Source: an uncultured Bacilli bacterium | Lineage (GTDB): Bacteria; Bacillota_I; Bacilli_A; RF39; UBA660 | DNA length: 64,000 nucleotides | Assembly (NCBI GenBank): GCA_947623925.1 | Contig: CANQID010000003.1 | Span: forward strand, 20,788-84,787 | Reading direction: 5' to 3' | Shown here: piece by piece, positions 26,139-53,938 of the stretch | Layout: every line of letters starts with the position of its first letter | Numbering within the stretch: position 1 is the first letter of the stretch | Program-made: the position numbers and the translations under genes | The notes under the pieces: generated by a model | Database searches by the model: none | The model's input: only the letters and a program-made list of their open reading frames with translations | What the model was told of the DNA's origin: nothing

Positions 26139-26154
26139 AAAAACACCTTATTTC

Positions 26155-26236
26155 AAAAAAAAGCACACGTAATTAGGGATTCTTAAGGCTGCTGTTTTCC
26201 AACTCTGACCTGATTCAAATATAATTACTGTGCATA
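26155..26236 (-). ncRNA. ffs: Small signal recognition particle RNA (4.5S-type)
   Basis: The minus strand carries the SRP domain IV core: AATCAGGTCAGAG, then a GGAAAA apical region and ACAGCAGCC, the internal loop recognised by Ffh. The ends pair (GCACAGTAATTA with TAATTACGTGTGC) to make one long ~80-nt hairpin followed by a T-tract. This is the short Alu-less form, unlike the long Bacillus scRNA. It sits next to tadA/dnaX, the usual SRP RNA neighbourhood in Bacilli. Confidence 0.88.
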
Positions 26237-26239
26237 GAT

Positions 26240-26268
26240 AATATATATTATTTTTATTTCTAATGCAA
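26240..26268 (-). promoter_or_regulatory. Promoter of the SRP RNA gene
   Basis: TTGCAT and TATATT separated by 17 bases on the minus strand; predicted start coincides with the first paired base of the SRP RNA. Confidence 0.65.
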
Positions 26269-49489: not shown

Positions 49490-51076
49490 GTGGAAGTAAA
49501 TAGGAAAGTAGTAGAACTAGCTTTGGATGACATTTTGCCTAATCGATTTCAACCAAGAATAAAATTTAATGAAGACTCTTTAAACGAACTTGCTGAATCA
49601 ATAAAAGAGCATGGTGTTATACAACCGATAGTAGTAAGAGCTGTAGGAGATAAATATGAAATAATTGCGGGAGAAAGAAGATATAAAGCTTCAGTATTGG
49701 CAAATAAAACTACAATACCTGCCATAGTTACAGATTTGAATGATAAAGATAGTGCAGAAGTAGCTTTAATTGAAAATGTGCAAAGACAAAACTTAACACC
49801 TATAGAAGAAGCAATATCTTATAAAAAAATACTTGATATGGGATATTTAAATCAAACGGCATTAGCTGAAAAACTTGGAAAAAACCAATCTACGATTGCA
49901 AATAAATTAAGACTTTTAGAGTTAGATGATGAAGTACAAGAAGCCTTATTGAATTCAAAAATATCAGAAAGACATGCAAGGTCTTTATTAAGAATTCAAG
50001 ATAAAAAAACTCAAGTTGATATGTTAAATAAAATAATTAATGAAAGAATGACTGTTAGAAAAACAGATGAGGAGATTGATAAAGTGTTAAATGGTATGAA
50101 TAATGATATAAATATTAATAATAATTTACAAGGAAATGTTGCTAACAATGTTTCACCACAAGGGGTTATGCCCGGAGTACAACAACCAGTAGTAGAGCAA
50201 AGTGTTCAGGAACCTATGAGTTTTGAAAGTTTATTTTCAAATAATCCTGTAAATCCAACATCACAGGTAAATGATGTTCCAATTCAACAACCTGTGATTA
50301 ATGAAAATCCTTTTGAAGTATCACAACAACCAGTTGAATCTATTGATTTAGGACAACAGATGAACCCAGGATTTGTAAATGTTGATAAAATTGTTGAACA
50401 AGCTCAACCACTTAATCCAAATCCGCAACCAGTTGATATGAGTAATTTTGTATCACAATATAATCCAGCACCAATGAATGTAGAGCAAGCACCATCTATT
50501 GAAAATAACAATTTACAAGGTCAAGTTGAAATGACACCAGAACAAGAATTGCAACCTAAAAAGTTTTTTAACATTTTAGGTGAGACTGAACAAGAACAAG
50601 CACCAACTACACCTTCACAACCAGATACAACTGCCTTTAATTTTGATAATTTATTTCAAGATGTGCCTCAACAATCTGTAAATGTTCAACAACCAGTAAC
50701 TCCACAACCAGTTATAGAACAAGCACAAAACATAGTTCAAGAACAAGTGCAACCTACTCCAATGGTTGATCCTTTTCAACAAAATACAACAGTAGCACAA
50801 ACTCCGGTTAATATGCAACCAGCAGTTGAACCAGTCCAAGAAGTAGTACAAGTACAACCTAGCACAATTCCAAATGCTGTTGATCAGATTAGTGTTCCAA
50901 ATCCTATGCCAGAGGAACTTTCATCAACTCAAGTATCTCAAAGTTTTAATTTCGATTCAGCTATTCAAGCAATTAATGAATGTGCTGCAAAATTACAACA
51001 ATTAGGATATAAACAAGAGCATGATAATTTTGATTTAGGTGATATGTACCAAGTAATATTTAGAATTGAAAAATAA
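49490..51076 (+). CDS. noc: Noc-like nucleoid occlusion protein with long disordered C-terminal extension
   Basis: 528 aa, about twice the usual ~280. Residues ~1-200 are a ParB/Noc core: DILPNRFQPRIKFNEDS, CTPase GERRYKAS, helix-turn-helix LAEKLGKNQSTIANKLRLL and RHARSLLRI. Residues ~205-480 are Pro/Gln/Asn/Val-rich (VQQP, VNxQQP repeats) and lack structure. The last ~45 (FDSAIQAINECAAKLQQLGYKQEHDNFDLGDMYQVIFRIEK in part) form a folded-looking end. GTG start after AAGGGAG. Bacillus Noc has an N-terminal membrane helix; only a short N-terminus (MEVNRKVVEL) is seen here. It follows rsmG, the noc position in Bacillus. Confidence 0.88.
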   Translation: MEVNRKVVELALDDILPNRFQPRIKFNEDSLNELAESIKEHGVIQPIVVRAVGDKYEIIAGERRYKASVLANKTTIPAIVTDLNDKDSAEVALIENVQRQNLTPIEEAISYKKILDMGYLNQTALAEKLGKNQSTIANKLRLLELDDEVQEALLNSKISERHARSLLRIQDKKTQVDMLNKIINERMTVRKTDEEIDKVLNGMNNDININNNLQGNVANNVSPQGVMPGVQQPVVEQSVQEPMSFESLFSNNPVNPTSQVNDVPIQQPVINENPFEVSQQPVESIDLGQQMNPGFVNVDKIVEQAQPLNPNPQPVDMSNFVSQYNPAPMNVEQAPSIENNNLQGQVEMTPEQELQPKKFFNILGETEQEQAPTTPSQPDTTAFNFDNLFQDVPQQSVNVQQPVTPQPVIEQAQNIVQEQVQPTPMVDPFQQNTTVAQTPVNMQPAVEPVQEVVQVQPSTIPNAVDQISVPNPMPEELSSTQVSQSFNFDSAIQAINECAAKLQQLGYKQEHDNFDLGDMYQVIFRIEK

Positions 51077-51114: not shown

Positions 51115-51143
51115 TTGAAAAAGTTCAAAAAAACTGTTAAAAT
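51115..51143 (+). promoter_or_regulatory. Promoter of the structured leader and DUF2798-type gene
   Basis: TTGAAA and TAAAAT with 17-base spacing and a TG extended -10. Confidence 0.7.
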
Positions 51144-51172
51144 TAGAAAGTATTTACAATTAAAAAGAAACG

Positions 51173-51239
51173 ACACATGTAGAGTTTTAAACTCGTAAAT
51201 CTGATTACGGAACTATAATTGGATTATATGTGTTTTTTT
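51173..51239 (+). promoter_or_regulatory. Structured leader RNA with intrinsic terminator (riboswitch-like, class unknown)
   Basis: ACACATGTA pairs with TATATGTGT (51225-51233) followed by seven T. Inside are hairpins GAGTT/AACTC (51182-51194) and GTAA/TTAC (51195-51208). A third helix TATAAT-TGG-ATTATA (51214-51228) shares bases with the inner part of the closing stem, so a switch between terminator and antiterminator-like forms is possible. It lies between a good promoter and the DUF2798-type gene's ribosome site. I compared it mentally with common classes (purine, preQ1, SAM, fluoride, T-box) and found no match. Confidence 0.6.
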
Positions 51240-51266
51240 GTTGTAAAAATAGAAAGGAGTATTATA

Positions 51267-51773
51267 ATGCCACAAACAAAAAATCAAAAATTACTTTATG
51301 CGTTTTTAACCGTAATAATAACAGTTCCATGTTTTGTATTTTATTGTCTTAGCATAGAAAATGGTGGTATTTTAAATGTAGATTTTAAGTTTGCTTTAAT
51401 ATTAATACCAATAGAATTTGTTTTAGCATATTTATCTGAAATATTTATTGGTAGCCCTTTATCACTTAAATTAGCTTTAAAATCAGTGCCACCAAAGGAA
51501 TATAAACCTGTTATTTTTGAAACAGCAATTATTTGTTCTACGGTTTTTATAATGTGCACATGGATGAGTTTTTTAGCAACTATACTTTATAAAGGAATAT
51601 TTCCAGCCTTTGTTTTTCATGAACAAATAACATTAAGTAATTTTTTAATCAATTTTATTCCTAATTATTTACAAACTGTTGTTTTTAATTTTCCGTTTGC
51701 ACTTTTAAGTCAATTGTTTTTTATTCAACCTTTTGTAAGAAGAATATTTAAAAAAATATGTAAAAGTTATTAA
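51267..51773 (+). CDS. DUF2798-type small membrane protein
   Basis: 168 aa from the ATG at 51267 (GAAAGGAG upstream). Four hydrophobic segments arranged as two similar pairs, each starting with a polar helix and a VPxxFxxx or NFxxN-type turn (TVPCFVFYCLSI and NFLINFIPNYLQTVVFNFPFA), as in DUF2798 proteins that have two such units. Role unknown; regulation by the leader RNA implies response to a small ligand or condition. Flanked by its own promoter and terminator, so it is a single-gene unit. Confidence 0.7.
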   Translation: MPQTKNQKLLYAFLTVIITVPCFVFYCLSIENGGILNVDFKFALILIPIEFVLAYLSEIFIGSPLSLKLALKSVPPKEYKPVIFETAIICSTVFIMCTWMSFLATILYKGIFPAFVFHEQITLSNFLINFIPNYLQTVVFNFPFALLSQLFFIQPFVRRIFKKICKSY

Positions 51774-51901: not shown

Positions 51902-53938
51902 ATGATTAAATCATTTAAAAAAGTTTTGTTTTTAATGTTATTTGCTTGTACGGTTAATACCGTTTCAGCAAAAACTTTTGATGTAGAGTTAATTACAAAT
52001 GAGAATCAAATTAATAATGGTTCTGGGGATTCTTATATATTTACAATAACTTCGGGTGATAATACATATGCTTGGATAAATGGTGTTAGTTCATCATCCA
52101 CATCATATCAAATGAAAGATAACTCTGCTATTATTACAATAAATAATGATAAAACAATAACAATAGATGATAAATATTCAAAATCTGCTTTATGGTCATT
52201 TTCAATAAGCAAAAATTCTATTGAAAGTAATAAAAATGCTTATGTACTTGTATCTAGATACTATGTAAGTAAAGATAATATAGATAAAATTCAGTTAAAC
52301 TTTGATTTTGCTAAAAAAGATAAAGAAACACATCCAACAGGTTTTACTTATACAGATAATGCTTACCCTATACATTTAGAATATAAAGATAATAATGTTG
52401 TTACAAAAGTGAGTCAATTTGTAAATGATGTACAATATTGGGTTCAATTTAGTTCAACTGATAAAAATTTTTATGTAAGTGAAAAAGAAAATTCTTCTAA
52501 ATCTTTCAAAATATACAAAGTAATTGAAAATACAAACAAAATACAAAAATATAAAACAGATGAAATAGAAGATATAAATTTTTCAAAAACTCAAACAAAA
52601 CATGAATCATTTACAAAAACAGGTGTATATAAAGTAGATTTATTATTAAATTCAAAAACAATTATGAAAGATTCAGATATTTTATTTGTTTTAGACTATT
52701 CTAATAGTATGGATTTTGAAACGAAAAAGAAACAATTAGATGAGGCAACAACAAAAATTTCAGAAGTTTTACTTAATTTAAATTCTAATAATCGTATAGG
52801 AATAGTTAAATTTGCTAAAGATATTATTTATGAAGAAGATTCATTAAAATTAGGGTTATCAAATGATATAAATAAAATAAAAGAGTTGATATCTAAGGAT
52901 TTGGATTCGGTACCTGGAGGAACTAATTATACCTATGCATTCGAAATGGCTAAACAAATGTTAAATGAAAATTATAAGAAAAACAGGGATCAAATAATAA
53001 TATTTGTCTCAGATGGAGCACCAACAATTTATAATCAAGCTAAATTTTCTGCTTTTTCAAAAACAGATGATGGTAAACAAGGAGAGTATGCTAATAATTG
53101 GTATGAATATTTATCAAAATATGATTTAAAACAAGTAACAGATTTGAAAAAACAAGGTGTTGAAATTATATCAATAGGCGTTGGAACTAATCAGGATATG
53201 GCAATGCAAACAGATGGGTCATATGTAGTAAAACCACAATGGGTACAGTCTATTTTAAAAAGAATTTCAAGTAGTGTTGAAGAAGCATATTTTGTTGATG
53301 ATTCAACAAAGATAGAAGACATATTTGAAGACACTTCATTTTTAAAATTATTTGTTAAGAATGTATATGTAAACGATTCTATAAAAGAAGATTATTATTT
53401 AGTAATCGATGATTTTGAAACATATAAACCATATATTGAAATAAAATTATCTAGTGGAAAAGTAATAGAGAAAATTACTTTTGATGAAAATGGTGCAAAA
53501 GCTTATAGTACATTAAGCGGAAATAAAAATATAATAACTAACGAAAATGGATCAAAAGTTATAGATGCAAAATATTTTACATATAATTTTGATACTAAAA
53601 AGATTACTTGGAAAATTGATAGACTTACAGAAGGAGATATAATATTAACATATTTTATTAAACCAATTAGTGATAATAATGAGTATGTTGAAGATGAGAG
53701 TGCAACAAATGGTACTGTAGAATTAACTTATGAAGATTATAATGGAAACAAAAAAGAAACATCATTCACAAAAAAAGTTGAAAATATTGAACAATTGCCA
53801 AATGAAGAAAATGATTACGAAGAAGAAATTATTAATCCACCAACAGGGATTTCTATTCCATATGTTTGTATTTTAATTTTATTAATTACGAGTGTCGGTT
53901 TAATGTTATATACAAAAAAACATAAATATTTTAGATAA
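51902..53938 (+). CDS. Sortase-anchored surface protein with von Willebrand A domain
   Basis: 678 aa from the ATG at 51902 (TTAGGAG upstream). Signal peptide at ~1-23 ending TVSA. A beta-rich N-terminal region (~24-210) is followed by a VWA domain (~220-430) with an intact MIDAS start DYSNS (DxSxS), the PGGTN loop and VSDGAP. The C-terminal region (~430-630) is beta-rich. A sorting signal NPPTG (645-649), hydrophobic helix and KKHKYFR tail end the protein. Such proteins act as pilus-tip or matrix-binding adhesins. The signal peptide end VNTVSA is the same as in the pilin at 4.5-6.7 kb. Confidence 0.88.
   Translation: MIKSFKKVLFLMLFACTVNTVSAKTFDVELITNENQINNGSGDSYIFTITSGDNTYAWINGVSSSSTSYQMKDNSAIITINNDKTITIDDKYSKSALWSFSISKNSIESNKNAYVLVSRYYVSKDNIDKIQLNFDFAKKDKETHPTGFTYTDNAYPIHLEYKDNNVVTKVSQFVNDVQYWVQFSSTDKNFYVSEKENSSKSFKIYKVIENTNKIQKYKTDEIEDINFSKTQTKHESFTKTGVYKVDLLLNSKTIMKDSDILFVLDYSNSMDFETKKKQLDEATTKISEVLLNLNSNNRIGIVKFAKDIIYEEDSLKLGLSNDINKIKELISKDLDSVPGGTNYTYAFEMAKQMLNENYKKNRDQIIIFVSDGAPTIYNQAKFSAFSKTDDGKQGEYANNWYEYLSKYDLKQVTDLKKQGVEIISIGVGTNQDMAMQTDGSYVVKPQWVQSILKRISSSVEEAYFVDDSTKIEDIFEDTSFLKLFVKNVYVNDSIKEDYYLVIDDFETYKPYIEIKLSSGKVIEKITFDENGAKAYSTLSGNKNIITNENGSKVIDAKYFTYNFDTKKITWKIDRLTEGDIILTYFIKPISDNNEYVEDESATNGTVELTYEDYNGNKKETSFTKKVENIEQLPNEENDYEEEIINPPTGISIPYVCILILLITSVGLMLYTKKHKYFR

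Follow-up and report, generated by a model that had tools for sequence, protein, structure and literature searches.

The leader that precedes a DUF2798-like membrane-protein gene in the window (the whole stretch of 64,000 nucleotides of DNA analysed here) is likely to be a member of a widespread, unlisted candidate riboswitch class of the terminator-embedded ON type that controls exporter genes, with ligand binding being an inference. The leader is judged to be real because its core is conserved upstream of homologous genes in relatives and in many Firmicutes. The preliminary description had proposed an unassigned riboswitch-like leader, which is supported, although the ‘ligand-controlled’ part of that proposal remains inferred, and neither of the two outcomes named beforehand as refuting it (a match in Rfam, or the absence of both covariation and conservation) occurred.

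The leader region sits between parB, which ends at 51076, and the membrane-protein gene, and contains a conserved RNA core of ~40 nt (window 51172-51210) of the form gACACAYGTWG-[hairpin H1]-RTAAATCTGATTACRG. The features identified were as follows.

51115-51143, + strand: promoter-like site TTGAAA-17-TAAAAT with TG before the -10 (consensus scan, 10/12 matches; no experimental start)
51153-51159, + strand: 5' strand TTTACAA of a possible outer helix P0, partner TTGTAAA at 51241-51247 (sequence)
51172-51181, + strand: conserved strand GACACATGTA, doubling as the 5' arm of terminator stem P1 (nearly invariant in relatives)
51182-51194, + strand: hairpin H1, 51182-51186 with 51190-51194 (compensatory changes at several pairs)
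51195-51210, + strand: conserved strand GTAAATCTGATTACGG (nearly invariant in model-found members)
51216-51224, + strand: inner terminator strand, pairing with core nucleotides 51199-51207 (minimum-energy fold of the full leader)
51225-51239, + strand: 3' arm of terminator stem P1 (51225-51234) and T-tract (51233-51239) (sequence, fold)
51253-51259, + strand: Shine-Dalgarno AAAGGAG (sequence)
51267-51773, + strand: gene for a 168-aa four-helix membrane protein, DUF2798-like (ORF, Pfam, AlphaFold2 model)

The promoter described earlier was confirmed, and from it a transcript start near 51150 is expected. The hairpins and the closing stem with its T-tract (seven T) were likewise present, although the stem differs from the earlier account in being a 10-bp helix, P1, formed by GACACATGTA/TATATGTGTT (51172-51181 with 51225-51234). 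The fold of an 86-nt stretch had an energy of -17.6 kcal/mol, shuffles averaging -11.3 (z = -2.36; 4/200 shuffles were as good), and since a single-sequence fold only moderately better than shuffles carries limited weight, the case depends on comparison and conservation. A helix resembling P0 was also present in close relatives (e.g. G086), and over all leaders it was found in 60% versus 39% of controls, only weakly above them, so that P0, strong in some relatives, was rejected as a general feature; its 3' strand comes after the U-tract. The source assembly contained one convincing copy of the core, and a search for a second copy in the same genome gave marginal matches alone (18.1 and 12.6 bits).

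A protein search for the downstream gene in 145 genomes of the same family detected it in 19, and the upstream DNA was readable for 17 of these (G035, cut by the contig start, and G009, a short fragment, were left out). The leader of the window's type, hereafter class 1, was found in 12/17 and a different conserved leader (class 2) in 5/17; in the sampled family, where upstream DNA could be read, the DUF2798 gene was thus never without one of the two leaders (17/17). A covariance model, R1, built from alignments of class 1 leaders matched 41/385 genomes of the same order, once in each and mostly with E below 1e-8, together with 4 more out of 392 genomes from the phylum, these belonging to other families of the same class (Bacilli). 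The order-level consensus, G[AG][AC]A[CT]A[TCA]GT[ATG]-H1-[GA]TAAA[TA][CT]TGA onward, was nearly invariant outside H1, and the members that define it were mostly found by the model and not by exact sequence. Scanning the genome contigs of GTDB for the exact pattern gave at least 116 loci, a lower bound. The two conserved strands are invariant by construction among these loci, and H1 lay outside the search pattern. The loci carried the labels Lachnospiraceae, Oscillospiraceae, Ruminococcus, Blautia, Clostridium (zeae, bornimense, symbiosum), Bacilli and Clostridia, the records being mostly metagenome bins labelled Bacilli, Clostridia, Lachnospiraceae or Tenericutes. The sampled relatives have small genomes of about 0.5-1.9 Mb. 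One locus in a Bacteroidia bin (L163), without the flanking features, is likely a chance match, and the exact core pattern was not found in viral contigs.

Covariation shows H1 to be a genuine RNA structure. Among 116 distinct cores its first four pairs were paired in 98-100%, and pair 2 occurred as T-A (62), A-T (28), C-G (21) and G-C (3), with shuffled partners pairing in 50% on average and 64% at maximum. In the 11-sequence alignment the same four pairs were paired in every sequence, three of them having changed on both sides. Three inner helices had been described in the preliminary account, and this was only partly borne out, the first (H1) alone being both conserved and covarying. No compensatory change was found for the second, the hairpin GTAA/TTAC within the 3' strand, or for a helix GTA/TAC between the conserved strands, and both were rejected as aptamer helices for want of covariation, so that the fold of the conserved strands is not settled beyond H1; the third, TATAAT-TGG-ATTATA, was not conserved. 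The accompanying suggestion that this third helix competes with the terminator was right in spirit, in that the full fold pairs 51216-51224 with the conserved nucleotides 51199-51207. The conserved strand GTAAATCTGATTACGG may be a ligand-binding or recognition segment, a proposal for which there are no binding data.

The terminator is built in part from the core itself. A T-tract was present within about 130 nt 3' of the core in 144/150 distinct leaders, and in 110 of these 144 the pairing of the strand that precedes the T-tract begins at the first core nucleotide, GACACATG; the GACACATGTA-type strand thereby pairs with the strand preceding the T-tract in most leaders. The complementarity of this last strand to the core was reached by no more than 5/100 shuffles of that strand in 128/144 leaders, and the linker's longest exact complement to GACACATGTAG averaged 5.9 nt compared with 3.7 in shuffles. 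One leader (L215) carries a compensated change in P1, ACACAAGT/ACTTGTGT replacing ACACATGT/ACATGTGT, and in three others the 3' conserved strand serves as the terminator arm (G297, with CCGTAATC before the T-tract, and likewise G334 and L158). In minimum-energy folds H1 formed in 110/140 aptamer-only sequences versus 31/140 full-length sequences, in 121/140 of which P1 formed. The window's own leader keeps H1 in its terminator fold; here the conflict comes from P1 and from the pairing of 51199-51207 with 51216-51224. Two criteria for a riboswitch are hence met: a conserved structured 5' leader RNA that extends beyond one gene family, and an expression platform that excludes the conserved structure, the terminator arm pairing with the core and H1 being mostly lost in full-length sequences.

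We propose that, without ligand, the nascent RNA would fold into a long intrinsic terminator in which the conserved GACACATG strand pairs with the strand directly before the U-tract, the conserved TAAATCTGATTAC strand would often be paired too and H1 would usually be broken, and transcription would end before the gene. A small molecule binding the core (H1 between GACACAYGTWG and RTAAATCTGATTACRG) would retain these strands in the aptamer, the terminator could not close and the exporter gene would be made. The ON direction follows from the requirement that the terminator be prevented by the folded core; it is inferred from anatomy, without expression data.

The genes behind the 150 distinct leaders comprised 109 of DUF2798 type, 20 MATE, 6 MFS and 1 CarD-like, with 14 cut off or unassigned; the MATE, MFS and CarD-like assignments were confirmed by Pfam on representative sequences. 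The MFS cases come from one genus (g68) of the window's family and from GTDB bins, and an MFS version (G067) had no DUF2798 match in the protein search. One leader counted as unassigned (L170) has a MATE gene 390 nt downstream. In another, from Clostridium bornimense (L132), a gene starting 47 nt after the core encodes a 339-aa protein without a Pfam match, which by eye resembles a spermidine-synthase-type methyltransferase fold and is a possible hint at the ligand. CarD-like genes lie directly behind the leader in two cases (L156, L150) and, by eye, just upstream of it in a third (L008), while a transposase-like ORF occupies the usual gene's place behind L164, suggesting an insertion there.

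The window protein, described beforehand as DUF2798-type, is itself only a weak match to Pfam DUF2798 (PF11391; 17.9 bits against a gathering cut-off of 23.5 bits), and 27 of its 57 aligned homologues matched the family at E <= 0.001 (best E 4e-13). Its AlphaFold2 model (pLDDT 88) consists of four long helices. A fold search of the DUF2798 model against the PDB gave no match at E <= 0.001 and the sequence profile of the window protein gave none against the PDB, so that fold comparison offers no hint at a DUF2798 substrate. The strongest hint is instead the swapping of transporter types behind an unchanged core, from which an exporter function for DUF2798, and a signal that is something expelled, are inferred. 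With non-homologous pumps (DUF2798-type, MATE and MFS) behind one core, the signalled compound probably needs expelling; it may be toxic. Organic cations are frequent substrates of MATE and MFS multidrug pumps, and for this reason a cationic ligand is a possible guess, also inferred. The DUF2798 membrane proteins, hardly mentioned in the literature searched, thereby gain a functional lead.

The class 2 leader has the consensus WTTGGAAAC-[hairpin]-GAACAACAC, is unrelated to class 1 and gave no meaningful Rfam match. It was detected in 20/385 genomes of the order, versus one match of a reversed control pattern, and none of these 20 was among the 41 genomes with class 1, where about 2 would be expected by chance. 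Class 2 precedes other DUF2798 genes (L217-L241, L015-L019; none in the window) and, in L224, a MATE gene, and a sequence model also located it ahead of DUF2798-like genes in another family (f9) of the class. In several class 2 cases, e.g. L221, GAACAACAC doubles as the 5' arm of a terminator. As two unrelated leaders stand before the same two gene families, both are inferred to report the same compound, and the second provides an independent check of any ligand. A bolder reading, which we consider as liable to be wrong as right, is that gut Firmicutes possess two unrelated, undescribed riboswitch classes for one compound and that DUF2798 is its new exporter family.

Comparison with catalogued RNAs bore out the earlier statement that no common riboswitch class could be matched. 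Rfam 15 gave no match above the gathering threshold for the window leader, 11 homologous loci and one GTDB example, and permissive thresholds gave nothing meaningful for the leaders. In the absence of a match to a catalogued RNA family, the leader probably senses an as yet unidentified compound. A tRNA-like cloverleaf was considered and rejected, ARAGORN finding none in the window. The literature searched contained nothing relevant on the leader sequence or on DUF2798 with a riboswitch, and the main texts of two lists of riboswitch candidates (PMC11109978, PMC8632094) mention neither DUF2798 nor MFS; a prior description cannot be excluded because supplementary alignments and subscription papers were outside this check. 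Near to class 1 in the terminator-embedded ON principle are the HMP-PP riboswitch and the HRC-8-4 motif (PMC8632094), although their gene contexts (cytochrome c operons and hvrB for HRC-8-4, a thiamin precursor for HMP-PP) are unlike that of class 1. The yjdF motif (PMC4793209) is similarly an orphan-type leader before a gene of unknown function and answers to a broad set of nitrogen compounds, but it occurs almost exclusively with yjdF; it is an Rfam family, whereas the class 1 leader matched none. The wide spread of an orphan switch indicates a compound that it pays many gut bacteria to expel, and since the core is short, extremely conserved and terminator-linked, a reporter or in vitro transcription screen could be a direct route to the ligand.

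The rival explanation that survives best, though we regard it as unlikely, is that the partner which recognises the core, and through which the terminator is controlled, is a protein (an antiterminator or RNA-binding regulator) and not a small molecule. Anatomy alone cannot separate ligand from protein, and CarD-like genes adjoin some instances. However, no regulator gene consistently accompanies the leader, and ~25 nearly invariant nucleotides shared across many families and preceding non-homologous genes are what one would more typically expect of RNAs that bind metabolites.

There is much less room for the leader being a guanidine-IV riboswitch (GGAM-1 or mepA motif; PMC7736828, PMC11611296) or the related orphan variant Gd4v (PMC9788692). 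Guanidine-IV is likewise a terminator-linked ON switch in Firmicutes that precedes MATE transporters and other exporters and has conserved nucleotides inside the terminator hairpin; Gd4v, a guanidine-IV variant with an unknown ligand, is also an orphan ON-type candidate enriched in gut bacteria and partly located before MATE genes. Guanidine-IV nevertheless has a pseudoknot or kissing loop that links its two hairpins, and it is associated mostly with sugE genes (PMC7736828, PMC11611296), whereas class 1 has one conserved, covarying hairpin inside the terminator (pseudoknots are not excluded), a different conserved sequence and DUF2798, MATE and MFS genes. Gd4v shares the guanidine-IV architecture and lies mostly before transaminase (PRK07324) genes (PMC9788692); neither feature was seen here, and behind the 150 class 1 leaders 109 genes were DUF2798-type and no transaminase or sugE gene was identified (14 being unassigned). 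When the conserved nucleotides of the second guanidine-IV loop were read as one spacing (PMC7736828), G62 U63 nn G66 U67 nnn A71 G72, this was present in 2/150 leaders. By the features tested, the class 1 leader is very likely neither of the two.

Equally hard to sustain is ribosome-mediated attenuation, in which a tiny upstream ORF (ATG TAG inside ACACATGTAG) would sense a ribosome-stalling drug. ATGTAG is present in most cores and stalling leaders often control efflux genes, but members with ACACACGT or ACACAAGT lack the start codon and those with ATGTTG or ATGTGG lack the stop, the rest of the core being unchanged in each case. Neither the ATG nor the TAG is conserved, and the start-stop ORF was rejected.

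A reading without any RNA sensor, in which the leader would be a DNA operator or merely the terminator of the gene upstream, is all but ruled out: intergenic terminators are commonplace and ACATGT is a DNA palindrome, but a promoter lies between parB and the terminator, upstream genes vary among genomes with the core remaining constant, and the compensatory changes in H1 are a signature of RNA.

Elsewhere in the window, Rfam matches were obtained to an S10-Clostridia ribosomal leader (2359-2463, - strand) and a bacterial small SRP RNA (26147-26244, - strand). The ParB-like protein upstream of the leader (49490-51076, + strand; 528 aa) has a long Gln/Pro-rich C-terminal half after its ParB and HTH domains. 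Downstream of the membrane-protein gene, 51902-53938 (+ strand) encodes a large protein, likely to be surface-anchored, that combines a von Willebrand factor A domain with a hydrophobic stretch at its C-terminus.
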